39,239 nt of DNA from positions 1 through 39,239 of the forward strand of contig JACAEL010000001.1 of assembly GCA_013388835.1 (NCBI GenBank). Direction: 5' to 3'. Positions 2,135 through 39,083 of the stretch are shown here, piece by piece. The position numbers and the translations under genes were made by a program. Numbering within the stretch: the stretch's first letter is position 1; every line of letters starts with the position of its first letter. Below the pieces are notes generated by a model. That model had not been told where the DNA came from. It saw only the letters and a program-made list of their open reading frames with translations, and did not search any database. This DNA comes from Candidatus Thorarchaeota archaeon (GTDB lineage Archaea; Asgardarchaeota; Thorarchaeia; Thorarchaeales; Thorarchaeaceae).

Positions 2135-2141
2135 GTACTGC

Positions 2142-2148: not shown

Positions 2149-2316
2149 CCACAAAGGGGCTTGCAGTTTAATCTCACTACTGGTCCGTTGCCATCTCACG
2201 GCTGGGTGGAGCCCATTTGCCCCCATAGACGGCCTCCAGAGAGTGAGGAGCGAGGCCATGTTCTTTTATGGAGCGGAGTGTCAACAACAGACAAAGACGC
2301 ATTCGGAAGACAGTGG

Positions 2317-6566: not shown

Positions 6567-6578
6567 GGTGACTGGGTC

Positions 6579-11521: not shown

Positions 11522-11577
11522 GCAAGTAGAACAGAAACACTGAAGAGATGGTTTCGCCGGTGGATGCGCCGGTGACC

Positions 11578-12237
11578 ATGGGCGAAAAGGTCCTTCAGAT
11601 TGCCACCTTGGGCCTCTACGCAAACGAGCGTGTGGACCAAGTGGTTCTGATGAAAGGAGCGGACAAGCTCGTACTGCTGTATACTGAGGCCAACAAGGAT
11701 GATGTAGTGTCGTTCAAAGAGAGACATGCCAAAGCGAAGCATCCGATAGACGCAGAGCTTGTTGACCCATGGGGGTATGAGAGCATCCTTGCGACCGTCC
11801 TAGACATCATCCTCAGACACAAGGAGTACACGGTACAGTTCAACATATCCTGCGGGACGATCGCCATGAGAGCAGCCTGTCACATGGCCGCGGTGCTCAT
11901 CGAGGCCCCTGTGTACTTCGTGGCGGAGACAGAGAGGGACGCGGGAAGACCCCTAGTCGAGGTTCAACCACTCAGTCTGTCCAAGCTGACTGCACCCAAG
12001 AGGACCATCCTGAGCAATCTGATCAGACTGGGAGGCCATGTTCAAAGCCAGAAGGAACTGGCGGACGTGGAGGGCGCCCATCCCTCATCGATATCGAAGC
12101 ACCTCAAGGAGCTGGAGAGCCAGAAGTACATACGGCGGAGCAGGGAGGGAGGCAAGAAGACCATTGAGATTACAGAACTTGGCAAGGTGATTCTCCGCCT
12201 GAAGGATGCCAGAAGGGACAGAGTCTGGGGAGGATGA
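11578..12237 (+). CDS. CARF domain-winged helix regulator, copy A (Csa3-like)
   Basis: A 219-residue protein with an N-terminal CARF-type Rossmann domain and a C-terminal winged helix, the layout of Csa3 and related CRISPR regulators. The CARF part shows LQIATLGLYANERV (strand 1 and loop), VDPWGYESILATVL, and the ligand-loop segment NISCGTIAMRAACH. The winged helix follows at about residue 140 (PKRTILSNLIRLGG, then a recognition helix in HPSSISKHLKELESQKYI). ATG 11578 is preferred because GGTGACC lies directly before it and the first CARF strand starts there; ATG 11548 is an alternative. The next gene starts 1 nt after the stop. The protein is paralogous to 28338-29015. It has no HEPN or other effector domain, so it is a regulator rather than a Csm6-like nuclease. 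It probably senses a cyclic oligonucleotide, but the ligand is unknown and no type III Cas10 cyclase is present. Confidence 0.8.
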   Translation: MGEKVLQIATLGLYANERVDQVVLMKGADKLVLLYTEANKDDVVSFKERHAKAKHPIDAELVDPWGYESILATVLDIILRHKEYTVQFNISCGTIAMRAACHMAAVLIEAPVYFVAETERDAGRPLVEVQPLSLSKLTAPKRTILSNLIRLGGHVQSQKELADVEGAHPSSISKHLKELESQKYIRRSREGGKKTIEITELGKVILRLKDARRDRVWGG

Positions 12238-12238
12238 C

Positions 12239-13858
12239 ATGAGCGCACCGTCCAGTAGCGAGCATCGCCTTGAAGTCGTCCAGACAATGTGGCAGAAGGC
12301 CGCGCTGAGACTGCTGGAACTCGGTCTGCGCCCGGATGACTGTCCAAGAGGCCTAGTGGTCACATCAGAGCATTCACTAGGTAAGGTGTATGGAGAGGTC
12401 TCACCGGACGGACAGCTATGCATCACCAAGGAGGCACTTGATGACTCCGCACTGTTCCATGGAATTGTGGCAAGGGAGTGCGCCAGATCAGCTCTGAGGA
12501 GTGACTCTCTGTGCGCAGAGTGCATCACTGATGTCGCAACCGAGTTTGCAGCCCAGCAGCTGTGCTCTGATGAGAGGGCTCGGTGGCGGAAGACATGGCA
12601 AGAGAGCAGCGATGACCGACGTGTGAATGGCGTCATCGTCTATAGTCCTGCAGCAGGCTACGAAGCACTCTACGATGTTGCTGGACCTGATGGACTCAAG
12701 AGCATCATACGGGACGTGTTCAATGCGTCTAGATATGGTGTCAGGCTCGAGTTCAACGACTATGCAGCATACTTTGAGACGCGGTTCAGGAGGTTCTCCG
12801 TCGGTCTCACTGCCGCAGAAGTCAGGATACTCGATGCGATGCTCAGAGACCCATCTGCCACATACCAGTTGGTAGCGCAACGAACGGGCTTCACACCACA
12901 GTGGGTGACTCAAAGGATTGCCTCACTCGAGAACAGACGCGTGTTGAGGAGCTGGGAGACCGTCCACTTCTCCAAGATTGGCATCAGGATGTTCCACCTG
13001 TTCATCGGCGAGGAGACCGGGGGACAGGACCCGTACAGATACTTCGTCAACTGCCCATTTGTCTATGCGATAAGGAGGGTGCTTACCGGAGACTGGCATA
13101 CGCTTGCAACCCTCAGTGTGCCAGACAACAATCAGAGCATACGTGCGGTCTACCATTCAGTCAAACAACTGGGCCAACGAGGGGTGCGTGTCGAGATCTA
13201 CGAGATAGTCTCGTCGGGTGCCGCGTTCTGCTTCGACTACTACCTGCCTGAGAGCGGGGCGTGGCAGGTGCCTTGGGACCTTGAGCGCGTCCAGCTGCCA
13301 AAGATACACAGAGAGAGGCTCTGGACAGCCTTTCCGCGTATCGACAGTCCCACGCCCAAGACCAGAGTGACACTTGACGAGCTGGACATGAGAGTAATCG
13401 AGGCCACAAGAAGGGGAGTCAACTCGGTGGCTTCTCTGAGGGGCGAACTGAGAGTCGGACAGACACGGGTCGCATCAAGCCTCAGGAAGCTGAGAGAGAA
13501 CGACATACTCTATACAGCCAGGGAGGCTCACAACGTTGGCCTGAACGAACACATCGTATTGACAGCAGACGAGCAGGAACTGGGAAGAGCAATTGCTGCA
13601 TGGTCACAGAGACTCCCAAGGACGATTCCGACATTCGACCTCGATGGTCGCTTGACTCTGCTCTGCAGTCTACCCACTGGAGGGAGCTATGGTCTCGCTT
13701 CATGCCTCGAGATGGTGGAAGGACAAGTGTCACTATCATTGCTCGGGTCGCCGCTACACGGGAAGTGGAGAATGCCGCTGGAGACATGGAATGCTGCTCG
13801 CCAAGCATGGGACTTTCCGGACAGGGAAGTCACAGAGTGGTTGGACTCTATGAGATAG
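12239..13858 (+). CDS. Tandem winged-helix protein of unknown function, copy A, paired with the CARF regulator
   Basis: A 539-residue protein in three parts. The N-terminal ~185-residue region is of unknown fold. A first winged helix at about 190-235 (TAAEVRILDAML with recognition helix QWVTQRIASLENRRVL) is followed by an alpha/beta domain. A second winged helix at about 378-425 (LDELDMRVIEATRRG with TRVASSLRKLRENDIL) is followed by a similar alpha/beta domain. The pattern resembles two Lrp/AsnC-like HTH-sensor units in one chain. It lies 1 nt after the CARF gene and is presumably co-translated with it. It is clearly paralogous to 28970-30637: both carry CPFVY..(x4)..V.TG near 271-283 and VPDNN soon after. 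I do not know a named family. A DNA-binding regulator of the CRISPR loci is the simplest reading. Confidence 0.7.
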   Translation: MSAPSSSEHRLEVVQTMWQKAALRLLELGLRPDDCPRGLVVTSEHSLGKVYGEVSPDGQLCITKEALDDSALFHGIVARECARSALRSDSLCAECITDVATEFAAQQLCSDERARWRKTWQESSDDRRVNGVIVYSPAAGYEALYDVAGPDGLKSIIRDVFNASRYGVRLEFNDYAAYFETRFRRFSVGLTAAEVRILDAMLRDPSATYQLVAQRTGFTPQWVTQRIASLENRRVLRSWETVHFSKIGIRMFHLFIGEETGGQDPYRYFVNCPFVYAIRRVLTGDWHTLATLSVPDNNQSIRAVYHSVKQLGQRGVRVEIYEIVSSGAAFCFDYYLPESGAWQVPWDLERVQLPKIHRERLWTAFPRIDSPTPKTRVTLDELDMRVIEATRRGVNSVASLRGELRVGQTRVASSLRKLRENDILYTAREAHNVGLNEHIVLTADEQELGRAIAAWSQRLPRTIPTFDLDGRLTLLCSLPTGGSYGLASCLEMVEGQVSLSLLGSPLHGKWRMPLETWNAARQAWDFPDREVTEWLDSMR

Positions 13859-23419: not shown

Positions 23420-24814
23420 TCAACGCACGGGCCACTTCGGACGGACCTCTACACCCGCACGCTCGATGAGCCTTGAAGCGTGTTCGTTTGCACGCCGAAT
23501 GAGGCTTGTCTCGTCAACTGTGAGAAGGCGTCGCTCCTCCATCAGTAGGCGACCGTTCACCATGACGGTCTCAACGTCTCTCCCAGACCCAGCATAGACG
23601 AGGTTTGAAACAGGGTTGAGGATGGGGTTGAGACCGACATGATCCTGAGAGACCACAATGATGTCAGCACACATCCCGGGTGCGATGCTGCCAGTCATGC
23701 CAGCAAGCCCCATGGCGCGAGCACCTCCAAGCGTCGCCATCTCCAGCGCCTGTTCAGCTGTCACAACAAGAGGATTGTGCTGTACAGGCTTATGAACGAG
23801 TGCGCAGAGACGCATCTCCCTGAGGAGGTCGTATGTGTTATTGCTCGGCCCACCATCGCAACCCAGCGAGACGGGGACTCCAGCCTCTATCATCCGGGGC
23901 ACCTTTGCGAACCCCGAGGCGAGCTTGGCATTACTTGACGGGCAGTGTGAGATGTTGGTCTGGGTCTGTGCCAACACCCTGAGCTCCTCATCATCGAAGT
24001 GTATGCCATGGGCGAACACCATGTCGGAGCCAAGCAGGCCCATTTCCGACGCGAAACTGGTCAGGTCCCGGTAGCCGTTCGCCTTCACATACCGCACATC
24101 ATCGACCACTTCGCCCAGATGCATGGTCATCCGTGTACCCCTGTCCCGTGTGAGCTGCACGACCCTTCTGAACAGCCCCGGCGTGACAGCACCCAGAGAC
24201 CGCAGACCATACCAGACCTGCAACCTGCCCTCGGCTCGCCCGTGCCACTTGTGGAACATCTCATCGGTCTCTCGCAGGCATTCCTCGGCCTCCTCGACCA
24301 TCCCGGGGTACATTATGTCACGACTATCAGCATAGCCCGTCGAGTCCATCACTATTTTGGACAGGGCCGCACGCATACCGACCTGCTTGACCGCCTCAGC
24401 TATACCGTCGAAGCCATAGCGTGAGTGTGTCATGCACTCGATGAACGACGTCGTACCGGTCTTGATCATCTCGGCCATGCAGAGCTCAGCGGACACTCTG
24501 CCATCAGCTCTGGTGAAGTTGCCCTGCAACACCCAGACGTACTTCTTCAGCCAGTCCACCAGAGACACATCATCCGCGCACCCCCGAATCAGGGCCTGGG
24601 CGAGGTGAACGTGCGTGTCAATCAGGCCGGGCATGACAATTCGTCCTGAGGCGTCGATGACCTTGTCGGCGGCCCGATGCTTCATCTCGTCTGTCTTGCT
24701 CACCTCGACCACTCGTGACCCCTCGACGTACACTGCTCCGTCAGTGACTATCTCGCGACGCTCATTCATTGTGATGAGGTAGCCATGCTTGATCAAGACC
24801 GAGTTCTGTGACAT
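23420..24814 (-). CDS. Amidohydrolase, cytosine/adenosine-deaminase-like (TRZ/ATZ family)
   Basis: A 464-residue metal-dependent amidohydrolase of the TRZ/ATZ group, which includes S-adenosylhomocysteine/5'-methylthioadenosine deaminases. Metal ligands are visible as the HxH of DTHVHLAQ near residue 68, MHLGEV, AHGIHF, and the Asp of LGCDGGPSNN. The N-terminal LIKHGYLITMNERREI and C-terminal VMVNGRLLMEERRLL strands form the composite beta domain. The likely reaction is hydrolytic deamination of an adenosine- or cytosine-type base. The exact substrate cannot be read from the sequence. It is convergent with the ABC permease gene (1-nt gap). Confidence 0.88.
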   Translation of the reverse strand: MSQNSVLIKHGYLITMNERREIVTDGAVYVEGSRVVEVSKTDEMKHRAADKVIDASGRIVMPGLIDTHVHLAQALIRGCADDVSLVDWLKKYVWVLQGNFTRADGRVSAELCMAEMIKTGTTSFIECMTHSRYGFDGIAEAVKQVGMRAALSKIVMDSTGYADSRDIMYPGMVEEAEECLRETDEMFHKWHGRAEGRLQVWYGLRSLGAVTPGLFRRVVQLTRDRGTRMTMHLGEVVDDVRYVKANGYRDLTSFASEMGLLGSDMVFAHGIHFDDEELRVLAQTQTNISHCPSSNAKLASGFAKVPRMIEAGVPVSLGCDGGPSNNTYDLLREMRLCALVHKPVQHNPLVVTAEQALEMATLGGARAMGLAGMTGSIAPGMCADIIVVSQDHVGLNPILNPVSNLVYAGSGRDVETVMVNGRLLMEERRLLTVDETSLIRRANEHASRLIERAGVEVRPKWPVR

Positions 24815-24942: not shown

Positions 24943-25023
24943 TTACCTCCTGAAGTACTGATAGGCGATAGCCCTTGTAGAGATGAGGGTGCGCTTGTGG
25001 GTGCGCTGGTTCTCGCTGGTCAT
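24943..25023 (-). CDS. 26-residue basic small protein, second of a pair
   Basis: ATG at 25023 to TAA gives a 26-residue, strongly basic peptide (MTSENQRTHKRT... ending AIAYQYFRR). It starts 5 nt after the stop of the 34-residue frame, on the same likely transcript. The two peptides share STRA-x-x-Y-x-Y, which is the main evidence that both are real and related. A terminator-like hairpin follows. I recognise no family; it is not ribosomal L41e or L39e. Confidence 0.5.
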   Translation of the reverse strand: MTSENQRTHKRTLISTRAIAYQYFRR

Positions 25024-25028
25024 TGTGT

Positions 25029-25133
25029 TCACCTCACGACAGTGGAGTATGCGTAGCCAAGAGCACGGGTCGACTGGGCCTTGCGCGTCCAGTTCTTCAC
25101 AGGTTCAGTCCGGTTGTTGGTTGCTTGAGCCAT
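25029..25133 (-). CDS. 34-residue basic small protein, first of a pair
   Basis: ATG at 25133 to TGA encodes 34 residues (MAQATNNRTEPVKNW... then STRALGYAYSTVVR). It lies 28 nt downstream of a clear TATA element, so it sits at the start of a transcript rather than inside a gene shadow. The downstream 26-residue peptide repeats its STRA-x-x-Y-x-Y motif. Net charge is strongly positive. Possible roles are RNA or ribosome binding, or a secreted/toxic peptide; none can be shown here. Confidence 0.5.
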   Translation of the reverse strand: MAQATNNRTEPVKNWTRKAQSTRALGYAYSTVVR

Positions 25134-25174: not shown

Positions 25175-25435
25175 CGAAGCCACGTCCTGAGGTCACCCAA
25201 ACAGGTCACGAAGAAAGGTCACATCATGTTACCAACGGTCGTTCAGCGGTGACGAGAACAACGGACAACTCGACACCGGGAGCCTTGTAGAACCCGACCA
25301 CAGGCACAGTCGCGAGACACCTTGCCAGATCTGAGGAGGCTGGAGAGCGTTCGAGAGCGCAAGAGAGCTGGTTGTCCACCAATGCTGGCTTCACTTACCA
25401 GCGCATGTGTTTCAGCATGAAGAGTCTTGACTGGG

Positions 25436-25446
25436 AAACTTTAAAG
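25436..25446 (+). promoter_or_regulatory. Possible TATA box for the ferredoxin-AOR operon
   Basis: AAACTTTAAAG lies about 55 nt before the ferredoxin ATG, in a 367-nt gap (25134-25500) where I see no other gene or RNA. Confidence 0.35.
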
Positions 25447-25500
25447 AACTCTCTTCGTCAACGTCAAGGACCACTCACCGTGAGGACCGTGAACAGGACC

Positions 25501-25989
25501 ATGAGTCTGCTGGTCATCGACCTCGAGAGATGCACTGGCTGCCAGAACTGCGAACTGGCGTGCTCAGTCAGAAACACGCGTACTTTCAACCCTGCGAGGT
25601 CGCGGATTCACATACTCAAGGATGAAGTGAAGAGCATTGTAGTCCCGATGGTATGTCTTCAGTGCGACGAGCCGCTGTGTCGTGATGCATGTCCCTCATC
25701 AGCAGTCGTGATGAACTCGGCGGGTGTACTCACTGTCGACCATGAGAGTTGTATAGGCTGCCAGAACTGCGTGACCGCCTGCATCTACGGTGGAGTGACA
25801 ATGGACCCTGTGACACGGAAGGCAGTCAAGTGTGACCTGTGCGGTGGAGAACCCGCATGCGTGAAGGCCTGTGAGTACAAGGCGATAACCATTGCAAAGA
25901 ACAGAAGGAAGGGGTTGAAGGACAGACAGACCAGCTTTGACCGACTGTACTCGTTCTACGGGCTGGGTCTGAGGGAGGCAAGACGATGA
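25501..25989 (+). CDS. Polyferredoxin, electron partner of the aldehyde oxidoreductase
   Basis: A 162-residue ferredoxin of the HycB/CooF/DMSO-reductase-B type with sixteen cysteines in four cluster motifs: CTGCQNCELAC, CLQCDEPLCRDAC, CIGCQNCVTAC and CDLCGGEPACVKAC. It can carry four [4Fe-4S] clusters. I chose ATG 25501, directly before the first cluster strand (SLLVIDLERC); the frame is open further upstream but that part is not ferredoxin-like. The stop overlaps the AOR ATG by 4 nt, so it probably shuttles electrons to or from that enzyme. Confidence 0.93.
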   Translation: MSLLVIDLERCTGCQNCELACSVRNTRTFNPARSRIHILKDEVKSIVVPMVCLQCDEPLCRDACPSSAVVMNSAGVLTVDHESCIGCQNCVTACIYGGVTMDPVTRKAVKCDLCGGEPACVKACEYKAITIAKNRRKGLKDRQTSFDRLYSFYGLGLREARR

Positions 25990-28308: not shown

Positions 28309-28337
28309 ACGGGATGAGAGACGCAGGGGAACAACAA

Positions 28338-29015
28338 GTGAGAAGAATCGTCCATGTCGCAGGTCTCGGCTTCAACGAGCAGGGACGCATTGCATATGTC
28401 ATCCAGAATCGAGGCGGCCAGAAGCTGGTGCTGGTGCACTCGAAAGAGAACCTTGACGATGCAATACGTGTTCAAGAAGACCTTCAGAAACACGGTGCCT
28501 TTGAGGTCGAGCTGATATGCGTGGACCCTTGGGACTACCACGATGTGCTGCAGAAGGTGATTGAGGTCGCAATCAGGCATCACAAGGATGACTTGAGGTT
28601 CAACCCGTCACTGGGGACAAGGGTGATGACGTCCGCCCTGTTTGTCGCTGCGAACTTCACCGGTTCACCTGTCCACCTGGTGAAGGAGGAGAAAGGAATA
28701 GCAACGGACGTCATTGACATCTATCCAGTCCAACGACAAACACTGAGCGCAATCAAGAAGCACATACTGGAGACGTTGAAGGCGCATGAGTCTACCGGCA
28801 TTGAATCCATCATGAAGCTCGCACGCTTGGTCAAGCGTAGCAACGCGAGCGTCTCACATCATGTCGATGAGCTGAGCATGTGGGGATATGTTGAAACGAA
28901 GCGGGAAGACAGGAAGGTGCTGGTGAAGATCACCGGACTGGGCGCCGCAGTCCTCAGGATGGCAGAGCTATGGAAGAAGAGAGAGAAGACGAAGAGAAAC
29001 AGGAGGAAGGGCTGA
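28338..29015 (+). CDS. CARF domain-winged helix regulator, copy B (Csa3-like)
   Basis: A 225-residue paralogue of 11578-12237. The N-terminal CARF-type domain shows RRIVHVAGLGFNEQGRI, VDPWDYHDVLQKVIEVAIRH, and NPSLGTRVMTSALFVAAN in place of copy A's NISCGTIAMRAACHMAAV. The C-terminal winged helix includes ESIMKLARLVKRSNASVSHHVDELSMWGYVETKRE. GTG 28338 is preferred since AGGGG lies about 10 nt upstream and the first strand starts there; ATG 28314 would add eight residues. The next gene starts inside its last 46 nt, so the pair is coupled. It sits between metabolism genes and the type I-B operon and may regulate that operon or its array. The ligand is unknown. Confidence 0.8.
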   Translation: MRRIVHVAGLGFNEQGRIAYVIQNRGGQKLVLVHSKENLDDAIRVQEDLQKHGAFEVELICVDPWDYHDVLQKVIEVAIRHHKDDLRFNPSLGTRVMTSALFVAANFTGSPVHLVKEEKGIATDVIDIYPVQRQTLSAIKKHILETLKAHESTGIESIMKLARLVKRSNASVSHHVDELSMWGYVETKREDRKVLVKITGLGAAVLRMAELWKKREKTKRNRRKG

Positions 29016-30637
29016 CAGCCTCCAGAGACGCACTTGTTGGTCTGTGGAGAGACAGCGTGCTTCGGTGCGCGAATCGGTTCGGTCTGAGTCCATCGCTGGT
29101 AGACAGTCCCACGACAGTGAGTTCATCCGCATCTGTGGGTTGGCCTGAGTCCTTTGACCAGATGGTGAGTCTTGATGGCGGCACAGTCGAGATTCCCAAC
29201 ATCACTGGCACCACAGCGGCACTTCTCAGGGCATTGATTGCTCGTGAGAGCCTGCGTCTTCTTCTCCCGAACGATGTGTTGCACGAACGTGCCATTGCGG
29301 ACCTGGCATCCGAATATGGACGACAGCAGCTGGAGGAAAGGGGACTTGCACTGTGGAGTGAGGAGTGGCAGCGTCGAAGCCCAAGAACGGCCATTCGAGC
29401 CGGCGGTGTATACGATCCCGTTCTGTTCTTCACAACGCTTGCGAATCTCACTGACAAGAAGGGACTGAACCTCCTTGTGAGCAGGGTCCTCGCGATGGAG
29501 CGGACGAGCATCAGGGCAGGCATTGATGAGTGGGGCTGGTATCTCCATCGCTTCCTGCGCGAGTACAACCATCCACTCAGCGAGATTGAAGTCAGGGTCT
29601 TGGAGGAACTCCTCAACGAACCGGACCTGACACGAGAAGCCCTCTCCGACCGACTCTGTGTCAGTGCAGACTGGATAGGGAAGACCATCCAGGGGCTGAG
29701 AGCGCGAGGACAGTTGAAAGAGTTTGTGCATCTGTCTTTGCCAGCTCTGGCGATAAGGACAGTTCAGATGCTCCTGCTGCCGGGAGAGAACTCACCGATA
29801 GACTGTGAGAGGTTGATCGAACACTGTCCGTTCGTCTACTCGTCTCATCAGGTGGTCACAGGACGAGGCGGCCTCTACATCACGTTCTGTGTGCCTGACA
29901 ACAACAGGAACATGAGCTACCTGCACAGGATGACGCAAGCGGCGCAGCGAACAGGCCACGAGGTCATAGAGTTCGAACGCTGCCGCTCCGCGCGTTATCA
30001 CAACCTCGACTGCTACTCGTGCCGAACGGGCAACTGGGAGATAGACTGGCCAACTGTACAGATGGACCTAGAGTACTTGTTGTCAAGCACCGGAGGGCAC
30101 GACGCGCTCCCTCCGGAACCGCCAGCCAGAGTAGCGCAGTACGACGGGCTGGATGTTCAGATACTCGTTCAGATACAGAAAGGTGTGCACAAGGTCAATG
30201 ACCTGCAGAGGATAGTCAAGCGGCGAACCGCACTCGTCAGCGAACGTGTCAACCATCTACGAAGTCTGGGCGTGGTCAAACACTTCTGGGAACTCCACTA
30301 CGTTGGCCTCATCAACGACGTGCTCCTGATTGCCCGAGATGCGGAGCCAAGCAGGGCCTTGCGGGCGGCTGCACCGAGGCTCCCCAAGTGTGTACTTGAC
30401 ACCGACACGAAGAATGGTACCCTGGTAAGAGCACAGCTCCCCGTCGGCGGCACACTGCAGTTTGTCAGGGCCTTTGAACATCTTGACCGGAGGCCGTATG
30501 TCTACGTGATTGGCCCCAGACTGTACGGTCAATGGCTGCTGTCAGACTTCATCGCAGACTGGAACTCGTATGCCGGGACATGGAGTCCTCATGAACAGGG
30601 TATTGACAACTGGCTCGAGATACTGGAGCAGTATTGA
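28970..30637 (+). CDS. Tandem winged-helix protein of unknown function, copy B, paired with the CARF regulator
   Basis: A 555-residue paralogue of 12239-13858 with the same order: an N-terminal domain of unknown fold (about 1-200), winged helix 1 (about 203-250, LSEIEVRVLEELLNEPDLT with DWIGKTIQGLRARGQL), an alpha/beta domain, winged helix 2 (about 390-436, LDVQILVQIQKGVHKVNDL with ALVSERVNHLRSLGVV) and a final alpha/beta domain. Shared landmarks are HCPFVYSSHQVVTG and CVPDNN. Copy B has an acidic N-terminal extension (MEEEREDEEKQEEG) because its ATG lies within the CARF gene; a later start is possible. The two copies have diverged well beyond recent duplication. Confidence 0.7.
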   Translation: MEEEREDEEKQEEGLTASRDALVGLWRDSVLRCANRFGLSPSLVDSPTTVSSSASVGWPESFDQMVSLDGGTVEIPNITGTTAALLRALIARESLRLLLPNDVLHERAIADLASEYGRQQLEERGLALWSEEWQRRSPRTAIRAGGVYDPVLFFTTLANLTDKKGLNLLVSRVLAMERTSIRAGIDEWGWYLHRFLREYNHPLSEIEVRVLEELLNEPDLTREALSDRLCVSADWIGKTIQGLRARGQLKEFVHLSLPALAIRTVQMLLLPGENSPIDCERLIEHCPFVYSSHQVVTGRGGLYITFCVPDNNRNMSYLHRMTQAAQRTGHEVIEFERCRSARYHNLDCYSCRTGNWEIDWPTVQMDLEYLLSSTGGHDALPPEPPARVAQYDGLDVQILVQIQKGVHKVNDLQRIVKRRTALVSERVNHLRSLGVVKHFWELHYVGLINDVLLIARDAEPSRALRAAAPRLPKCVLDTDTKNGTLVRAQLPVGGTLQFVRAFEHLDRRPYVYVIGPRLYGQWLLSDFIADWNSYAGTWSPHEQGIDNWLEILEQY

Positions 30638-30967: not shown

Positions 30968-31036
30968 ATGTTTCAATCAGACCTAGGGAAACTCGAAAGA
31001 GAAGTGCTGCGACAAGAGAGGGAGGAACAGGCATGA
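30968..31036 (+). CDS. 22-residue leader ORF overlapping cas6
   Basis: ATG 30968 begins a 22-codon frame for a charged helical peptide (MFQSDLGKLEREVL..., Glu/Arg-rich). Its stop overlaps the cas6 start in ATGA. It sits directly downstream of the operon's TATA candidate. It may couple ribosomes onto cas6, or act as a regulatory leader peptide; it could also be chance. Confidence 0.4.
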   Translation: MFQSDLGKLEREVLRQEREEQA

Positions 31037-31764
31037 GGTTCAGAGCCATTCTTTGCCCTTGGAAGGAGAATGGCAGTCCTCCAGTCCTCAGATATGACTA
31101 CCAATACAGCGTCGCTGGTATGCTCTACAATCTGATGATTGGGGCAGAACCAGAACTCAAGCACCTTCACGACTCAAAGGAGTTCAAGTACTTCACATTC
31201 TCTCGTCTTGAGGTGCCAAGGAGGAGGGCGCTTTCCCAGGGGCTCGTCCTGTTGAGCGACGATGCATATCTGTGGGTGAGCAGTCCGGATGACAGGCTTG
31301 TCCGTGTGCTGGGAAAGAGAATGCTGGAGTCGCAGGAGATGTCTATCGCCTCTGTGAACTTCTCAGTTGCAGGCATCGACTTGCTAGGGCCTTTCAACTC
31401 TACGGGTGATGAGCAGTTCACAACAATGTCGCCGATAGTACTGAGGACGGTCCGCGAAGGCGACGGCACGAAGAGGACGTGGGACCTGTCTCCTGACGAT
31501 GACGAGTTCGCAGGCTATCTCATCAAGAACCTCGAACGGAAATATGCGACCTACACCGGAGAGGCCTCCAAAGGCATCACAGAGGTCACCGAGATCTCGA
31601 ACTGCCACAGCAAGCGGATTGAGATTGACGGGATATACCACCGTGCACACATGATGGACATATCGATGCGCGGGCCTCCCGAGGTGCTCAAGTTCGCTTA
31701 CGACTGCGGGCTCGGGGAAAAGAACTCGATGGGCTTTGGAATGGTCCGGTTGAGGGGGCGATGA
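31033..31764 (+). CDS. cas6: Cas6 crRNA-processing endoribonuclease (type I-B locus)
   Basis: A 243-residue Cas6 with the classic C-terminal glycine-rich loop GLGEKNSMGFGMVRL. The N-terminal half has YDYQYSVAGMLYNLM, the usual strand-helix region; a candidate catalytic His is in LKHLHDSKEF near residues 44-49. The ATG overlaps the upstream leader ORF stop, and the cas6 stop overlaps the cas8 ATG by 4 nt. It should process the right-hand array, whose 31-nt repeat ends in GTTGAAAC. Confidence 0.92.
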   Translation: MRFRAILCPWKENGSPPVLRYDYQYSVAGMLYNLMIGAEPELKHLHDSKEFKYFTFSRLEVPRRRALSQGLVLLSDDAYLWVSSPDDRLVRVLGKRMLESQEMSIASVNFSVAGIDLLGPFNSTGDEQFTTMSPIVLRTVREGDGTKRTWDLSPDDDEFAGYLIKNLERKYATYTGEASKGITEVTEISNCHSKRIEIDGIYHRAHMMDISMRGPPEVLKFAYDCGLGEKNSMGFGMVRLRGR

Positions 31765-33161
31765 ACACCATGTCCAAGACGAAGCGCACAGGGCAGACCA
31801 CTGTGGCAGCAAGACCTCTCTTCTCATTGACCGGGAATCCGTTCGTCGACAACGGACTCGCTGCACTCTGCGTCATGGCCGGTAAGCAGAGACCTGAAGA
31901 ACTGGACATTGAAGATGTCAGGACCCAGGCGCAATACATTGTCAACGTCTATTCGCAGCCAGCAGTCAAGAAGATAATCCACGGCATGTTCTTTCCCAAC
32001 TCGGAGCTCGTCAATCCTGTAGTCAAGGATGGCATGACGAAGTATCAGACGCTCATGACGGACCTCATTGAGAGACTCAGTGCGCCTCAGAGCAGGGGAA
32101 GCTGTGTCGCGTGCGGTCTGAGAGATGGTGACCCCGTGGGAAAGACACGAGTGCCTCTGCTTGGTTCTAAAAAGCTGGTCAACTTCTTTCCTTCGGGGGT
32201 GGAGGGAGAGCGTTTCTGTCCCAACTGTATCGTGGCAGTACAGTTCCTGTTACTGGCTGTTGAGAAAGCGGGGTGGCCATTGATGCTGCACACCTCGAAC
32301 TGGACTATCCAGTATGCATACGTCAAGGGTGCAGTCAACCGGTTCAAGAGACAGGCTGCGAGCAAGGAGTATGGACTGGCAGATAGAGGCTACAAGCAGT
32401 CTGCAGGTCTCAATGCAGTCTATGAGACCATCAGAGAGATACTCGACGACCCAGATGTCCAAGCAATGTCGGATTCAGCTGAGCTGGTCGCACCGCTACG
32501 GTTCTATCACTTTACGAATTACGGCCAAGGTCCTGATGTGCGATTCTACGACATACCGAGCAGTGTGGTGGACTTTCTCTTGCAGATCAGGACCAGAATG
32601 GACACATGGCTGAGAATTGTTCGCAGGGGGTATTCGTCGAAGAAGAAGGGCGACCCCGAAGAGCTCGAGTACACGACAGAGAATGATGTATACAGGCAGA
32701 TCACGGACGGAAAGTCCATTGTGAAGTACTTCTTCGAACAGGAAGACTACAAGGTGATTGGGGACTGGCAACTGGTGTCAGTATACCTTGCGAGGTTGAG
32801 GATGATGGACGACAAGCGAATAAACACAGTCAGGGATGTTGCAGACCGAATCCTTGCGTTCAGCAAGAAGACCGGGTCAGCAAGACGAATACAGCAGATG
32901 CACTGGGCAAGGACCTACAGGGAGTTCCGGTCCGTGCTTCTCAAACTGCAGGAGGAGATGGTTCGCAAGAGCGGCGAGCCATTGGTATCCTACGACGAGT
33001 ATGTTCTGGACCTCGCTCCAGAGGGTGGACAGGAGTGGCAGGAGACTCGCGACCTGCTCCTATTCCGTATATACGAGATGGGGTGCGATTGGCTTGCGAG
33101 TCAGCCCGAAGCCGCTGAGGGAGCGGACTCAGAACAACAGACTATGGAGGTAACAGAATGA
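31761..33161 (+). CDS. cas8b: Cas8 large subunit, Cst1 / CXXC-CXXC family (type I-B)
   Basis: A 466-residue Cas8 of the Cst1 (Tneap) type, the large subunit that recognises the PAM. The N-terminal FSLTGNPFVDNGLAAL motif is diagnostic of the family. The paired zinc-binding cysteines are CVACGLRDGDPVG near residues 114-117 and FCPNC near 153-156. The ATG overlaps cas6. ATG 31770 is a second possible start. Near the 3' end an ATG pair after GAGGTTGAGG could start a separate small subunit. The stop overlaps the cas7 ATG by 4 nt. Confidence 0.87.
   Translation: MNTMSKTKRTGQTTVAARPLFSLTGNPFVDNGLAALCVMAGKQRPEELDIEDVRTQAQYIVNVYSQPAVKKIIHGMFFPNSELVNPVVKDGMTKYQTLMTDLIERLSAPQSRGSCVACGLRDGDPVGKTRVPLLGSKKLVNFFPSGVEGERFCPNCIVAVQFLLLAVEKAGWPLMLHTSNWTIQYAYVKGAVNRFKRQAASKEYGLADRGYKQSAGLNAVYETIREILDDPDVQAMSDSAELVAPLRFYHFTNYGQGPDVRFYDIPSSVVDFLLQIRTRMDTWLRIVRRGYSSKKKGDPEELEYTTENDVYRQITDGKSIVKYFFEQEDYKVIGDWQLVSVYLARLRMMDDKRINTVRDVADRILAFSKKTGSARRIQQMHWARTYREFRSVLLKLQEEMVRKSGEPLVSYDEYVLDLAPEGGQEWQETRDLLLFRIYEMGCDWLASQPEAAEGADSEQQTMEVTE
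32802..33161 (+). CDS. Possible internally started Cas11b small subunit inside cas8
   Basis: In-frame ATGs at 32802 and 32805 follow GAGGTTGAGG, a purine-rich site resembling a ribosome binding site. Translation from there gives about 119 mostly helical residues (MMDDKRINTVRDVADRILAF...). Type I-B and I-D systems are known to make their small subunit from an internal start in the large-subunit gene. The size and helical character fit. No direct evidence of use. Confidence 0.4.
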   Translation: MMDDKRINTVRDVADRILAFSKKTGSARRIQQMHWARTYREFRSVLLKLQEEMVRKSGEPLVSYDEYVLDLAPEGGQEWQETRDLLLFRIYEMGCDWLASQPEAAEGADSEQQTMEVTE

Positions 33162-34180
33162 CAAAGGTGATTCAAGGATTCGTGATGGTTGACACATGGG
33201 CAGCAGCTCTCAACAATGCAGGAGTTCAATCATCAGAACGAACAGACAACATAGTGCGAACAAAGGTGATATGGAGAGGCCGTCAGGCCTATCCGTATGT
33301 GTCCGGCCAGTCATGGAGATACTGGTGGCGCAACACTCTTGCCGTACGGAAGGGCTGGCAGCTGTCCCCCATAAACAGAGAGGCAAAGATTGCCTACACG
33401 GCTGCGGACCCTCTCACATACCCGGATGACGACATCTTTGGATACATGCGTGCGCCCAAGAGCGAAAAGGACGAGAGCGGAAAGAAGACGAAGACCACGA
33501 CATTGACTCGTCTGTCCGTGCTCAAGAACTCTCCACTGATATCGACAGGTGCACACAAGCCGACTGAGGACTTCGGGACCTTCTCAAGACTTGAAGGCAA
33601 CCCGGTGCCCTATGAACACGAGTTCTACTCCACAGTCCTGAAGGGCCTCTTCTCCATAGATGTAGAGTCGGCGGGAGTGTTCAAGAGCATCGCCTCGGCC
33701 GGGAGTCAGAACATACCTGAGGACTTCAAGATTCCCGCTCAGCTGGCATCAAAGTGTGAGAAGATCGAGCGCGGGGTCGCAATGAAGAAGGACATACGCA
33801 TACAACGCATCAGAGACACTGTCGAGGTCATTCCGCATCTGGAAGGTGGCGCCATGCAGGCCCGACATCTGACACGGGTAGCGCCCAGTCTGTTGGTGAT
33901 AGCAGCCTTCAAGACGGGTAGCCATGTACTGTCTCATCTTGGCAAGGAGGAGTCGGGCTCGGCTAGGCTCAACATCGAGGCCCTGAAGCAAGTGATCACA
34001 GACTACAGAGGAGAGCTTCTGACGAAGCTCTATGTGGGTCGTGAGACCGGGTTCCTTGATGAGCAGTCAGGTGAGATAGACCGACTGGTCGCCGAATACA
34101 ACAAGGACATAGTGGTAGCAGGTTCAGTAGCAGGCGTTGTGAAGATGTTCTGCGAGGAGATACCCAAACTGGTAGGCTGA
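33158..34180 (+). CDS. cas7: Cas7 backbone subunit, Cst2/DevR family (type I-B)
   Basis: A 340-residue Cas7 of the Cst2/DevR family, which forms the crRNA-bound backbone. Family features are IQGFVMVDTWAAALNNAG, KVIWRGRQAYPYVSGQSWRYWWRNTL near residues 30-65, FEYYSTVLK-like HEFYSTVLKGLFSIDVE near 150, and RHLTRVAPSLLVIAAFKTG. The ATG overlaps the cas8 stop. Cas5 starts 12 nt after the stop. Confidence 0.9.
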   Translation: MTKVIQGFVMVDTWAAALNNAGVQSSERTDNIVRTKVIWRGRQAYPYVSGQSWRYWWRNTLAVRKGWQLSPINREAKIAYTAADPLTYPDDDIFGYMRAPKSEKDESGKKTKTTTLTRLSVLKNSPLISTGAHKPTEDFGTFSRLEGNPVPYEHEFYSTVLKGLFSIDVESAGVFKSIASAGSQNIPEDFKIPAQLASKCEKIERGVAMKKDIRIQRIRDTVEVIPHLEGGAMQARHLTRVAPSLLVIAAFKTGSHVLSHLGKEESGSARLNIEALKQVITDYRGELLTKLYVGRETGFLDEQSGEIDRLVAEYNKDIVVAGSVAGVVKMFCEEIPKLVG

Positions 34181-34192
34181 TGGGGTGGTCAG

Positions 34193-34861
34193 ATGAAGGC
34201 ACTGCGCGTGGAGGTCACTGCATGGACTGCCTCCTTCCGATACGGAGGGTTCATGATTGGCATCCAGCCCACCCTGCCCATGCCTCCGCTCTCCACTCTC
34301 TATGGCCTGTTGTCTGCAGCTGCAGGACGTCCTATGACCCCGCATGACACCTTTCTGGCATACACCTTCAGGAGTGAAGGCAGCACTGTTGACCTGGAGC
34401 GAATAATGGAGGTCGAGCCGGGAGTCGGCGGCAAGTGGAACGTGATAAACCGCGAATGGGTCTATCAGCCGCATCTGACCCTGTACGTCAATCCAAAGAT
34501 GAGACCACACTTCGAGAAACCCTACTTCCCGCTGCTACTTGGTCGGTCATCAGACCTTGCCAGTATCCACTCTATCAAGGAGGTTGAACTCCAAGAGGTG
34601 AGTAGTAGAGAGTCAAGCACATTCGGTCACAGTATCTACACTCACCCTCCTGCGGGATACCGAAGGACGACCATGTATGCCTTGCCTGTCTACTTCACTG
34701 ATGACATCCCACGTGTGGCAGTCGGGACGAGACCTTTCATGATGGTCACCGAGGCCTATGAGGGACATGGAGAGGGAGTACGCGACCCGGACGTGGGTCT
34801 CACCATGGAGCTGTTCACAGCTGAATCACTCGGACTTGGTAACCCATCGCAGAACAACTAG
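34193..34861 (+). CDS. cas5: Cas5 (Cst type, I-B)
   Basis: A 222-residue Cas5, which binds the crRNA 5' handle. The N-terminal strand VEVTAWTASFRYGGF followed by QPTLPMPPLSTLYGLLSAAAGRP is the characteristic Cas5 start. ATG 34193 has TGGGGTGGTCAG just upstream. It lies between cas7 and cas3 in the single operon. The C-terminal half is less conserved. Confidence 0.92.
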   Translation: MKALRVEVTAWTASFRYGGFMIGIQPTLPMPPLSTLYGLLSAAAGRPMTPHDTFLAYTFRSEGSTVDLERIMEVEPGVGGKWNVINREWVYQPHLTLYVNPKMRPHFEKPYFPLLLGRSSDLASIHSIKEVELQEVSSRESSTFGHSIYTHPPAGYRRTTMYALPVYFTDDIPRVAVGTRPFMMVTEAYEGHGEGVRDPDVGLTMELFTAESLGLGNPSQNN

Positions 34862-34876
34862 ACCTGAGGCGAGTTC

Positions 34877-37174
34877 ATGACGCTTCTTGCGAAGCCGGAC
34901 GAACCTCTCGCCGAACACACGGCTTGTACACTCAGAGTACTCATGAGCATGGATGGGCTGCGGGCGTGCCACACGACACTTGCAGGGTATGACGTCCACG
35001 ACTGCGTGGCACTAGCTCTCGCAGTCCACGACATGGGAAAGGCAGCCGAGGGCTTCCAGCGTCAACTGAACAGCAAGGACATGAAGGCAGACTCCAGTCG
35101 AACAGGAGGAGTCGAGGCTAGAAGACGATGGAACTATCGGCATGAAATACTCTCGGCTGCAATAATGTCCACCATGGACTTCTCTGCAGCACCACCCGAC
35201 TACGAACAGAATGCGGCTCTGGGAGTGCTCAGTCATCACAAGGACTTGGACACACTGTGGTCGGGCTTCTCCACAGTACCGAAGACAGGTCTTGGTTACT
35301 CGAAGTACATCGAGCGTCTGAAGGAACTCCATGGAGCCTTTCGTGAACTCTCTTCTATCGCAGTGAGCATGAGGGATACCATCTCGAGTCTATTCCCAGT
35401 GGCTCGAAGGGTGTTGGACACGTTCATCGATGATGAGGATGAACTGATGAGACGTATGCGGGCGAGGGATCCGTTCAACGCTTACTTGGCGGGATATAGG
35501 CGTACTCGGCCCTGTTTGACACTCCAACAGAAGATGAGCGGAGTCCTGCTGAAGGGGCTCATCACAGCCTGCGACCATCTGGCATCCGCAGGTCATAGCT
35601 CAACTCGTTCCGCAGACTGGGACGCACCGGTCCCGCCACATCCACGTCCAGTGCAGCTGTGGGCAGACTGTCTGAGAGGTTCGGGAATACTCGTGGCAAG
35701 GACCGGTATCGGGAAGACCGAGGCGGCACTCATGTGGGCACGGAGAAACATGCGTCCCGGCGGGCGGCTGTTCTATCTGCTTCCGACCGTGGCCAGCATT
35801 AACCGCATGTATATACGTCTTCGTGACGGATACTCGCGGGGTGCGCCCGCAGACTATGATCTCGTGTCGATGCTACATCATCGCTCATCGCACTATCTGC
35901 ACTCCTACTACTCTGATGAGGAGTACATTGAGCAAGGAGTATCACCCGAATACTTGGCGAACTTGTCAAGACAGGTCTACTCCCCTGTCAAGGTCACCAC
36001 ACCATTCCAGCCTCTGAAGAGCATATTCGGCATGAGAGGATATGAGAAGGGACTCGTTGACCTCTCCCACTCTTGCATTGTCGTTGACGAGATTCACTCC
36101 TATGACCCGCATGTGATGGCACTGATCCTCGTGATGCTCAACATCGCAAGGCAATACGGTGCACGTGTCCTGCTGATGTCAGCCACCCTGCCTGCGTTCG
36201 TGATAGCAATGCTCCAGAATGGGATTGGCATACCTCCGGGGAACACACACATCTACACACAGGAGGATGACTACTCACGTCATCGACTCAGACTCATCGA
36301 GGGATCCATGAGCGACCACATGGACATGATTGCGGAAAAGTCGAAAGAGCGACGAACACTTGTCGTGTGTAACACCGTGAATAGGGCCATTGAGACATAT
36401 CTTGCACTGAGAGACCGCGTTGGGAGGGAGAAGTCTGCAATCCTACACAGTCGGTTCATACTCCGGGACCGGATAGAGCGCGAGCGTGAGCTTGACGGAG
36501 CACAACTGGCCGTGGCAACTCAGGCCGTGGAGGTCTCACTTGACTTGGACTTTGACCAGATGTTCACTGAACCCGCCCCGATTGACGCGCTGGTACAGAG
36601 GTTCGGTCGAGTCAACAGGCAGCGACGGCTTGATGAAGCGCCGCTGTACGTCTTCACAGCAGGCGGAAAGTACGACAAGCATGTGTACCGGAACTACGGA
36701 AGAGTCGAGCGTACTGTTGAGGTGCTCAGGTCGCACGAGTCGGACTTGCAGAAGGGACTGACGGAAGGGACTACCAGGCAACTGGTGGATGAGGTATACC
36801 AGTCGGGTTACTCGCAGGACGAACAGAATCAATTCGAGACAGCCATGCGCAGCCTGTCCGACTGGTGGAGCAGCTTTGGACCCTTCCGTAAGGGGAGTCC
36901 GGACGAGTTCTACAGACTATTCGACGCGGTGGATATCATCCCCTCCTGCTTCGACCAGCAAGTCCAGGAGATCATGTCGAAGAAGAGATGGTTTGAGATA
37001 CCAAACTACGTGGTTTCAGTGCCAATACACGCATACGTGCGCTTCTATAGTGCGAACTTGGTGAGGAGGACAGAACCACACCCCATCTGTGAGGTCGACT
37101 ACGACCCGGAACTCGGTCTTCGAGTCGACAGCATCGGCGAGAGGAAGGAGTCTGGGGATGACTTCATCATGTGA
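34877..37174 (+). CDS. cas3: Cas3 HD nuclease-helicase (type I-B)
   Basis: A 765-residue full-length Cas3. The N-terminal HD nuclease shows EHTACTL, VHDMGKAAEGF near residue 50, NYRHEILSA, and LSHHKD near 115. The helicase follows with motif I ARTGIGKTE near 273, DEIH near 404, LMSATLP, ATQAVEVSLDLDFD and QRFGRVNRQ (motif VI). It is recruited by Cascade and degrades the displaced strand. Unlike the I-D locus, nuclease and helicase are fused here. Its 3' end overlaps the likely cas4 start. Confidence 0.95.
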   Translation: MTLLAKPDEPLAEHTACTLRVLMSMDGLRACHTTLAGYDVHDCVALALAVHDMGKAAEGFQRQLNSKDMKADSSRTGGVEARRRWNYRHEILSAAIMSTMDFSAAPPDYEQNAALGVLSHHKDLDTLWSGFSTVPKTGLGYSKYIERLKELHGAFRELSSIAVSMRDTISSLFPVARRVLDTFIDDEDELMRRMRARDPFNAYLAGYRRTRPCLTLQQKMSGVLLKGLITACDHLASAGHSSTRSADWDAPVPPHPRPVQLWADCLRGSGILVARTGIGKTEAALMWARRNMRPGGRLFYLLPTVASINRMYIRLRDGYSRGAPADYDLVSMLHHRSSHYLHSYYSDEEYIEQGVSPEYLANLSRQVYSPVKVTTPFQPLKSIFGMRGYEKGLVDLSHSCIVVDEIHSYDPHVMALILVMLNIARQYGARVLLMSATLPAFVIAMLQNGIGIPPGNTHIYTQEDDYSRHRLRLIEGSMSDHMDMIAEKSKERRTLVVCNTVNRAIETYLALRDRVGREKSAILHSRFILRDRIERERELDGAQLAVATQAVEVSLDLDFDQMFTEPAPIDALVQRFGRVNRQRRLDEAPLYVFTAGGKYDKHVYRNYGRVERTVEVLRSHESDLQKGLTEGTTRQLVDEVYQSGYSQDEQNQFETAMRSLSDWWSSFGPFRKGSPDEFYRLFDAVDIIPSCFDQQVQEIMSKKRWFEIPNYVVSVPIHAYVRFYSANLVRRTEPHPICEVDYDPELGLRVDSIGERKESGDDFIM

Positions 37175-37712
37175 GGTGATAAGAACGGGCGATACAGCAG
37201 ATGACTGGAGCGTGGCTCTTGAACGGCTGAACGGCACCATGGTGAACTACTATGTCGTATGCAAGAGGAAACTCTGGCTCTTCTCCAGGAACCTTGGCCG
37301 AGAACAGGACAGTGAACTCGTCACAATCGGAAAGCTGATCCATGAGTCTTCGTTCAAGAGACGCGAGAAGGAAGAACTGATTCTGGGACGCGTCAAGATT
37401 GACCACACCACGCGCTCCGGAAGACTGATCGTTCATGAGGTGAAGAAGTCAAGGAGCCATCCGGAGGCCGCAAGGGCTCAGCTCCACTTCTACATTTGGT
37501 TCCTTGAGCGACTGGGGGTGACGTGCGAAGGACAACTTCACTTCTATGGCGAAAAACAGAGGGAGGACGTGTCATTGGGACCAAGCGAGCGAGCGTATTT
37601 GGAAGCCATCATACTCGACGCATTGAGGACAATCGACTCCCCATCTTCTCCAGAGTGTCAGCGCTCCGCCCTCTGCAGAAAGTGTGCTTATCGCGACTAC
37701 TGCTGGGCGTGA
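37158..37712 (+). CDS. cas4: Cas4 exonuclease (type I-B locus)
   Basis: A ~184-residue Cas4. It has LNGTMVNYYVVCKRKLWLF (first cluster cysteine), GKLIHESSF (conserved His), KIDHTTRSGRLIVHEVKKS (nuclease Asp and E-x-K), AQLHFYIWFL and the C-terminal CRKCAYRDYC with three cluster cysteines. ATG 37158 overlaps the cas3 end. GTG 37212 would give a more standard Cas4 N terminus and is a good alternative. Cas1 follows after 4 nt. Confidence 0.9.
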   Translation: MTSSCEVIRTGDTADDWSVALERLNGTMVNYYVVCKRKLWLFSRNLGREQDSELVTIGKLIHESSFKRREKEELILGRVKIDHTTRSGRLIVHEVKKSRSHPEAARAQLHFYIWFLERLGVTCEGQLHFYGEKQREDVSLGPSERAYLEAIILDALRTIDSPSSPECQRSALCRKCAYRDYCWA

Positions 37713-37716
37713 GAAC

Positions 37717-38709
37717 ATGAAACGGAATCTGTACCTCAGCTCGAATGGTAGACTTCACAGAAAGGAGTCCACGATATACTACTATACCAAGGATGGCACT
37801 CGGGTCATCCCGATAGACCAGGTCAAGTCAATCACCGCTATCGGCCGAGTGTCGGTCACTTCTGGAGTCATCTCGTTTCTCTCCCAGAAGGGTATACCGC
37901 TACACTTCTTCGGGTACTATGGTAACTACGAGGGCTCCTTCTATCCCAGAAGACGACTGGTCTCAGGCTTTGCTATAGTAGCCCAAGCCGCTGCACACCT
38001 TGATGTTCATAGACGAATGCGTATCGCCAGGGCAATCGTCCAGTCCTGTATCAAGAACATGGTCTTTGTCTGCACGAGGTATGCACACAAACAAAGCGAA
38101 CTCTCAGACGTGGTACTCCAACTCGAAGCGGCACATGACCAAGTCCCTAGCGCAGTCGACGTCGCTGAGCTGATGAGTATCGAGGGGAGAGCGTGGATTG
38201 CCTACTACTCGGGCTTCAACCTGATGTTGACCAACTTCAGAATGGGTGGCAGAGTCAAACGACCTCCTAACAACCCCGTAAACGCACTCATCAGCTTCGG
38301 AAACAGCCTCCTCTATTCTACCATACTCACTCAGATATTCCACACCCAGCTGGATCCATCGATAAGCTTCCTCCACGAACCAATGGAACGTAGGTTCTCT
38401 CTCGCTCTTGACATCGCAGAGGTGTTCAAACCCAGTCTGGTGCACCTCCTCATACTGAAGGCACTCAACCTTCGTCAACTCACACTAGACGACTTTGACC
38501 ATGAAACAGGCTGCTGTCTCCTCAATGAGTCCGGCAGAAGAACATTCCTCTCATTGCTCGATGCAAACCTCCGCGAGACTGTCCGGCATCCCCATCTCAA
38601 GAAGTCGGTGTCCAATGAGTATCTTCTCCGACTGGACTGCTACAAACTCCAAAGACATATCACCGAGAACTCCGACTATTCCCCGTTTCTTGCCTCCCGA
38701 GGTTACTGA
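37717..38709 (+). CDS. cas1: Cas1 integrase (type I-B locus)
   Basis: A 330-residue type I-B Cas1. N-terminal KRNLYLSSNGRLHRKESTIYYYTKDG and VSVTSGVISFLSQKGIPLHFFGYYG are typical of this subtype. Catalytic Glu is in MSIEGRAW, His in SFLHEPMERRFSLALDIAE, with the last acidic ligand following. ATG 37717 lies 4 nt after cas4; the open frame starts earlier but inside cas4. It is only distantly similar to the I-D Cas1. Confidence 0.95.
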   Translation: MKRNLYLSSNGRLHRKESTIYYYTKDGTRVIPIDQVKSITAIGRVSVTSGVISFLSQKGIPLHFFGYYGNYEGSFYPRRRLVSGFAIVAQAAAHLDVHRRMRIARAIVQSCIKNMVFVCTRYAHKQSELSDVVLQLEAAHDQVPSAVDVAELMSIEGRAWIAYYSGFNLMLTNFRMGGRVKRPPNNPVNALISFGNSLLYSTILTQIFHTQLDPSISFLHEPMERRFSLALDIAEVFKPSLVHLLILKALNLRQLTLDDFDHETGCCLLNESGRRTFLSLLDANLRETVRHPHLKKSVSNEYLLRLDCYKLQRHITENSDYSPFLASRGY

Positions 38710-38710
38710 A

Positions 38711-38974
38711 GTGTACGTCGTCCTCGTCTACGACATAGATGTGACAAGAATCGATAAGGTCCGTAACCTCCTGAAACGCTACCTGTTCTGGATTCAAAAC
38801 TCGGTCTTCGAAGGCGAGATATCTGACTCATCCTTCAAAGCTATGACTCAGGAAGTCAAGGCACTCATCGATACCAACTACGACTCCATCGTCATCTACA
38901 TAATGAAGTCCCAAGCATCCGCTAAGAGACAGATCATCGGCCTTGACCTCTCACTACGTGACTTTATCGTCTGA
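38711..38974 (+). CDS. cas2: Cas2 (type I-B locus)
   Basis: An 87-residue Cas2. YVVLVYDIDVTRIDKVRNLLKRYLFWIQNSVFEGE carries the conserved Asp at the end of strand 1 and the usual VFEG strand, and IVIYIMKS is the fourth strand. GTG 38711, one nt after the cas1 stop, is the proper start; the open frame extends into cas1. It is the last gene before the leader. Confidence 0.93.
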   Translation: MYVVLVYDIDVTRIDKVRNLLKRYLFWIQNSVFEGEISDSSFKAMTQEVKALIDTNYDSIVIYIMKSQASAKRQIIGLDLSLRDFIV

Positions 38975-39083
38975 CTTCCTAAAACCTTTATAAATGACTT
39001 GCATCACCGGAGGTTTTGGAGCACACCTCCGTACAGCGACCACCATAATCCTTATCTGCGAGAAAGGAGCAAAAAAGCCTGCG
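38975..39083 (+). promoter_or_regulatory. Leader of the right CRISPR array
   Basis: The 109 nt between cas2 and the first repeat carry a TATA box, TTTATAAAT (38987-38995), followed by GACTTGCA. The TATA box ends 88 nt before the repeat. A 7-bp hairpin, CGGAGGT/ACCTCCG (39008-39014 with 39025-39031), lies just downstream. Pre-crRNA should start near 39020. A purine- and A-rich stretch lies next to the repeat. Confidence 0.7.

Follow-up and report, generated by a model that had tools for sequence, protein, structure and literature searches.

Do two very short reading frames, lying in tandem between an amidohydrolase gene and a ferredoxin gene of a Candidatus Thorarchaeota genome, encode proteins, and what might such proteins do? 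The locus belongs to a 39,239-nucleotide stretch at the beginning of contig JACAEL010000001.1 (assembly GCA_013388835.1), here called the window. An earlier note, made from the sequence alone, had described a pair of tiny basic proteins with a common motif and their own promoter. We followed this description into related genomes, where the pair proved to represent a multi-copy family.

The tandem frames and their homologues

Both frames are present on the minus strand as the earlier note had stated. ORF A (25133-25029, stop codon included) encodes a basic protein of 34 aa, MAQATNNRTEPVKNWTRKAQSTRALGYAYSTVVR, and ORF B (25023-24943, likewise with its stop codon) a basic protein of 26 aa, MTSENQRTHKRTLISTRAIAYQYFRR, with 5 nt between the stop of A and the start of B. 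Computed isoelectric points of 11.0 and 11.5 and a net charge of +5 apiece agree with the description of both peptides as very basic. The sequence GAGGTGA (25035-25029, minus strand), which overlaps the stop codon of A, reads as a good archaeal Shine-Dalgarno with the right spacing for B. Upstream on the same strand, the TATA box TTATATAC (25172-25165), invariant in most aligned promoters, stands 31 nt from the start codon of A. It is preceded by a palindrome, GTAACATGATGTGAC (25232-25218), a presumed activator site kept upstream of 82 aligned first genes, and by two GTGACC half-sites (25209-25204 and 25196-25191) recognized from the sequence and its alignment to a second copy in the same genome.

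Beyond B, a 9-pair hairpin (24925-24904, minus strand) with a T-rich tract (the whole element spanning 24925-24890) forms a possible terminator. The earlier note had pointed to this hairpin, and it is there; shuffled sequences yield 0.7 such sites per 1.5 kb and one was seen, so that the element is near chance expectation and weak evidence taken alone. The amidohydrolase gene (23420-24814, minus strand), on the same strand as B, starts 128 nt downstream of it and may share the A-B transcript, while the ferredoxin gene (25372-25989, plus strand) forms the other flank of the gap. These neighbors are ordinary (Amidohydro_1, 4Fe-4S ferredoxin, aldehyde ferredoxin oxidoreductase). The window contains no tRNA, and hence nothing suggests that this copy inserted at a tRNA target.

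Elsewhere in the window, PADLOC identified a type I-D CRISPR-Cas locus (201-10299; Cas1, Cas10d, Cas7d, Cas3d, and Cas6) and a second one of type I-B (31033-39183; Cas8b, Cas7b, Cas3b, and Cas1b). After the latter, a 31-nt repeat, GTTCCAATCAGACTAGAAGTAGGGTTGAAAC, appears twice (39084 and 39153); these copies probably mark the beginning of a CRISPR array that is truncated where the contig stops. In two further places, 11548-13858 and 28314-30637, a CARF-domain protein (detected by PADLOC at the first place, its counterpart at the second being similar in appearance) is followed by a protein of about 550 aa (12206-13858 and 28970-30637, respectively) containing helix-turn-helix-like stretches; compared by eye, the two look paralogous.

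To search for relatives, we used a profile of 51 A proteins from other genomes that included neither B nor any window sequence; its underlying alignment had 52 rows, with one residue wrong in one row. Run over all 1378 window frames that reach 15 aa, this profile returned A (E=1.4e-14) and B (E=0.008), with the next frame at E=3.1, indicating that A is homologous to B and that both have homologues elsewhere. Chance similarity between the two frames, which the earlier note had considered unlikely, is ruled out by this test together with the relatives. The shared motif stands as well, but not in the exact form STRA-x-x-Y-x-Y that had been proposed: the family consensus is broader, ST-x-A-[ILV]-x-x-[AV]-[YF]-..-R.

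The own genome (3.0 Mb, 125 contigs) carries a second copy (G000:C12:71952-72053, hereafter the C12 copy). Along 264 bp, from the promoter through to the end of B, it is 96% identical to the window copy; neither copy is frameshifted relative to the other, and their flanks are unrelated. A search with A as the query gave matches in 30 of 59 related genomes, and iterative profile searches on the fetched loci collected 176 frames at 88 loci. The A profile matched 34 of the 38 genomes of the same taxonomic family, with up to eleven matches in one genome, and none of 110 genomes elsewhere in the phylum. Conservation of the frames and motif in relatives, on which the earlier note had staked its proposal, is therefore observed. 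Three genomes missed by the profile (G010, G012, and G015) proved, when approached via the palindrome, to hold diverged cassettes (L241, L245, and L235); G004 gave no palindrome match. A DNA pattern of the start region recovered 73 stretches among GTDB genomes, all 73 titled Candidatus Thorarchaeota. As far as these collections show, the family appears confined to Thorarchaeota. A viral origin was considered and rejected: the same pattern, which diverged copies would escape, had no match among IMG/VR viral contigs, and PHROGs gave no significant hit.

Substitution patterns indicate that the frames are maintained as proteins. Nei-Gojobori counts on disjoint pairs gave pN/pS values of 0.36 for A (44 pairs) and 0.35 for B (15 pairs). 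On ungapped pairs, the in-frame values were 0.30 for A, 0.34 for B, and 0.35 for C, a third gene described below (7 pairs only for C), versus 0.93-1.53 in shifted frames. Third codon positions were the most variable in the ungapped pairs, and several synonymous codons are used at invariant residues. The selection that the earlier note had asked to see is thus found for both of its frames (0.30-0.36 for A, 0.34-0.35 for B), and the A, B, and C frames all show the signature of purifying selection. We consider it nearly certain that the family exists and is coding.

The earlier note knew of no such family, and our searches agree. Neither Pfam nor NCBIfam matched A, B, or C at E up to 10, PHROGs returned a single nonsignificant match (E=0.29), the PDB sequences contained no match, and we found no paper on such a family in the literature. 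Family sequences may be present in a small-protein catalogue built from public metagenomes (PMC11364881), whose text names neither Asgard archaea nor Thorarchaeota.

Operon architecture, shared promoter, and copy evolution

Across the family, A proteins are 27-39 aa long (median 34) with a mean charge of +5.1 and the consensus MALTTNNRxxSVLKNKxxxxxSTxALxYAYxTVVR, in which the N-terminus (MALATNNR) is also conserved. B proteins measure 24-33 aa (median 29), carry a mean charge of +6.3, and follow the consensus MALAKxxxxKxxxxxISTxAITxAYFRR. The third gene, C, lies after B and encodes an acidic protein of 30-41 aa (mean charge -2.5) with a variable body and a tail conserved at the stop codon, [DE][VI]LxLEAT (e.g., EVLALEAT). 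Median pI values are 10.4, 11.1, and 4.8 for A, B, and C, respectively. The peptides are hydrophilic (mean GRAVY about -0.6), mostly without a hydrophobic stretch, the best 15-residue window averaging below 0.3, which makes membrane insertion unlikely. Stop-anchored information content revealed that conserved residues concentrate next to the stop codon, while the bodies of B and C vary. An AlphaFold model of A, a single helix of low confidence (pLDDT 65), is too weak to inform the choice of a binding partner.

Among 80 loci with enough sequence, 35 have the arrangement A-B-C, 23 lie upstream of a same-strand MFS transporter gene, and 22, including the window, show neither. C is present in the C12 copy and missing from the window copy and from about half of the loci. 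Adjacent ORFs are separated by 4-7 nt in 64 of 66 pairs, and an AGGTR motif overlaps the upstream stop codon, also in 64 of 66. The near-constant terminal Arg(-Arg) of A and B is thereby explained, at least partly, as the next ORF's Shine-Dalgarno read in frame. A terminator-like hairpin (AGTGCTC..GAGCACT) in turn overlaps the coding end of C. Genus g5 has another hairpin at this place, GGAGGC..GCCTCC, and the tail still reads [ED][IV]LxLEAT; retention of this tail over two different hairpins argues for selection on the peptide. The A-B-C operons thus end in a terminator-like hairpin of their own, and in 21 of the 35 the next ORF is on the opposite strand, leaving no cis target there. At several MFS loci, B ends 5 nt before the MFS gene.

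Alignment of 82 upstream regions revealed about 95 nt in common, comprising the palindrome in its family form (TAGTMACAnnnTGTGACY), a GTGACC half-site some 8 nt further along, GTGGCTYCGC, TATATAC, and a TTGTGAA that immediately precedes the ATG. The promoter that the earlier note had assigned to the pair from its TATA box is accordingly a property of the family loci. The position of the palindrome upstream of the BRE/TATA region suggests that it binds an activator. A single genome of the taxonomic family can contain the palindrome as many as seven times; matches to the reversed control are rare.

The palindrome also precedes other genes. One, seen in several genera and also in the own genome (L236), is a bactofilin-like gene (Pfam Bactofilin, E=2.8e-7) located after a winged-helix gene (HTH_45, E=3.6e-9). 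Others encode MFS_1 transporters, with a diverged small ORF in between (L233, L237, and L241). An MFS gene of the own genome (G000:C52; L260, upstream of 35090) retains a recognizable promoter, TAGTAACGTCTTGTGACC...GTGGCTCCGCATTATAA, with only an 8-codon ORF, MRRIVLRL, at the position of A. Additional A-like and B ORFs immediately upstream of MFS genes are driven by a second promoter type, in which GTGACC lies close to the start site. On this motif evidence, the mini-protein operons and the MFS and bactofilin genes would constitute a small regulon.

Three observations concern possible regulators and further members. An HTH_45 gene of 101-107 aa stands directly before the bactofilin-like gene at L236 (1672-3395, G000:C43), L232, L234, L239, L242, L244, and L247, and its product is a candidate regulator of the palindrome promoters; the version on G000:C43 has 101 aa. 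Upstream of L130, L132, L149, and L256, a recurrent promoter-like element combines GGTTTG or GGTTGG with CAAACCTTATATA, perhaps the site of a different regulator. At position 2051 of L238 (G018:C10:31600-35600), a palindrome-type promoter stands in front of a gene whose small product is probably a two-helix membrane protein; encountered once, this gene may be another member of the regulon.

The copies within a genome evolve together in one genus. Flanking genes identify four loci as orthologous between the sister genomes G008 and G018. Orthologous cassettes are 0.81-0.85 identical between these genomes, but within either genome the identity between loci is 0.86-0.98, an excess that marks concerted evolution. 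The tendency is weaker over all genomes, where same-genome paralogues average 0.66 and other-genome orthologues 0.61, the latter figure spanning several genera. The C12 copy adjoins a uroporphyrinogen-decarboxylase-like gene (a label taken from the gene's sequence, not from a profile), as in six genus g4 genomes, and probably represents the ancestral locus. On that view, the window copy would be a recent duplicate without C and with a 13-bp half-site repeat; its half-site at 25209-25204 arises from this repeat, which the C12 copy lacks. The overlap of the B Shine-Dalgarno with the A stop, the palindrome, the half-sites, the second copy, the acidic C, and the multi-copy regulon are all features absent from the earlier note.

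What the mini-proteins may do

We consider activator-induced, soluble, trans-acting mini-proteins, two basic and one acidic, to be the best reading of these loci, with a probability of roughly 0.4. An activator would bind the palindrome and a GTGACC half-site upstream of the TATA box and turn on a short mRNA with a 5' leader of about 10 nt. A would be translated first, and B and C would follow by termination-reinitiation coupling, which would set the proportions of the two basic peptides and the acidic one. The peptides would act in trans as soluble molecules, each basic one combining a flexible tail with a short C-terminal helix (STxAIxYAY). Tail and helix together may bind something anionic (RNA, the ribosome, or an acidic protein, for example), with C either counterbalancing them or completing the complex. 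The same signal would induce MFS efflux and a bactofilin-like polymer, and this co-regulation makes a stress or envelope response the probable setting.

Frame-specific selection on A, B, and C, the recurrence at 88 loci with 176 frames confined to Thorarchaeota, free-standing A-B-C operons, the stop/Shine-Dalgarno overlaps, the kept C tail, the shared promoter, the palindrome in front of MFS and bactofilin genes, and the hydrophilic, charged character of the peptides speak for soluble trans-acting mini-proteins, and the concerted evolution in G008 and G018 fits a demand for one product at dosage. Against this reading stand the 23 loci before MFS genes, with B 5 nt away in several, an arrangement that also fits cis regulation; a conserved motif at the stop codon, as in arrest peptides; the low-confidence model of A; and the absence of C from the window and about half of the loci. 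A more far-reaching version, held tentatively and with the odds against it, pictures a lineage-specific regulatory mini-proteome: a signal-responsive activator would control many homogenized A-B-C copies, whose products, two basic peptides and one acidic, would form a stoichiometric complex that acts on translation or on nucleic acids, and efflux pumps and a bactofilin-like cytoskeletal protein would belong to the same regulon.

The MFS junctions and the residues clustered at the stop codon, with B and C bodies free to vary, instead invite the view that A, B, and possibly C are nascent-chain leader peptides, whose C-termini act inside the ribosome so that their translation controls a downstream gene in cis. 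MefA offers a precedent: it, too, is an MFS pump, and its short leader has basic residues at the end (PMC10314930). We regard the leader-peptide view as unlikely. The terminal Arg is at least partly accounted for by the next ORF's Shine-Dalgarno, the N-terminus of A is conserved too, and a strict leader-peptide model for the entire family is weakened by the free-standing A-B-C operons, with their terminator-like hairpins and frequent opposite-strand neighbors, and by the MFS gene on G000:C52, which keeps the promoter with only an 8-codon ORF. The idea is strongest at the B-MFS junctions, and the family may work like a known system at some loci.

The MFS genes of the regulon could alternatively export the peptides as leaderless multi-peptide bacteriocin-like or signaling molecules, with C as the neutralizing partner. 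Tandem, related, cationic peptides of 24-39 aa without a leader, laid out like aureocin A70 (PMC10941976), and lineage-specific variation are compatible with this proposal, but a mean GRAVY of -0.6 sets them apart from the highly hydrophobic aureocin A70 peptides, and most A-B-C loci lack an exporter. The MFS family directly after B was not found in the own genome or in any of the seven genomes chosen for that search, which included no positive control. Export as a bacteriocin or signal is accordingly improbable. The opposite charges (+5, +6, and -2.5), the compact coupled operon, and the multiple dispersed copies also recall a toxin-antitoxin-like set in which acidic C neutralizes basic A and B, a proposal that we find very doubtful. 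C is missing at many loci, including the window, where A and B persist, although the C12 copy of the own genome retains C and could supply it in trans. There is no significant PHROG match, no viral-contig match to the start-region pattern, and no typical toxin or antitoxin domain, and the same genomic sites are kept in several genera, unlike those of mobile modules. Scarcely credible, finally, is the idea that the repeated unit acts as an RNA, regulatory or structural, or is merely a small mobile repeat, and that its ORFs are incidental. The promoter is conserved as well as the ORFs are, and conservation between the two own-genome copies begins at the palindrome and stops at the end of B; in-frame pN/pS of 0.30-0.35 against the shifted-frame controls, the synonymous codons at invariant residues, and the Shine-Dalgarno placement largely refute this idea, and the frame-shift controls rule out a non-coding repeat.

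Significance and comparison with known systems

Proteins shorter than about 40 aa escape gene callers, and these three families are absent from the libraries searched, even though nearly every Thorarchaeota genome examined has them, frequently in many copies. For the Asgard archaea, which are the archaeal relatives of eukaryotes, they provide a defined promoter motif and a putative small regulon of mini-proteins, MFS pumps, and bactofilin. The successive stop/Shine-Dalgarno overlaps also offer a clean natural example in which to study how translation on archaeal ribosomes is coupled by reinitiation.

Small basic DNA-binding proteins are familiar in archaea: Cren7, Sul7, and MC1 have folded domains of about 60 aa or more and belong to Pfam families. 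A and B share their small size, basic character, and archaeal origin, but are half as long and match no such family. A closer likeness in size is found in the small arginine-rich DUF1127 proteins (Agrobacterium SDPs, CcaF1, and YjiS), often shorter than 50 aa, basic, present in several copies per genome, and thought to bind RNA or signaling proteins (PMC12501420). A and B are likewise tiny, basic, and multi-copy; however, the Pfam scan detected no DUF1127 domain in A, B, or C, and the DUF1127 proteins are bacterial and do not occur in coupled A-B-C-type operons with an acidic partner.

The MefAL and MsrDL peptides of the mefA/msrD operon resemble the loci at MFS genes, being encoded by short ORFs before an MFS efflux gene and depending on C-terminal residues near the stop (PMC10314930). 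They are far shorter and act via an attenuator on the following gene, whereas many A-B-C operons are free-standing with a terminator-like hairpin. Ribosome-arrest leader peptides more generally have conserved residues beside the stop codon, as do A, B, and C, in part because of the overlapping Shine-Dalgarno; a downstream gene on the same transcript, present at the 23 MFS loci, is not a family-wide feature. Leaderless bacteriocins of the aureocin A70 type are tandem, related, cationic, and free of a signal sequence, but these highly hydrophobic peptides are accompanied by an ABC exporter and an immunity protein (PMC10941976). A and B are hydrophilic, no exporter and immunity gene accompany them, and while some loci adjoin an MFS gene, none of the A-B-C loci does.

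Set against these systems, the protein families and their architecture appear to be new. The scale of 88 loci, the acidic C, the coupling signals, the promoter and regulon, and the concerted evolution are new in this analysis.
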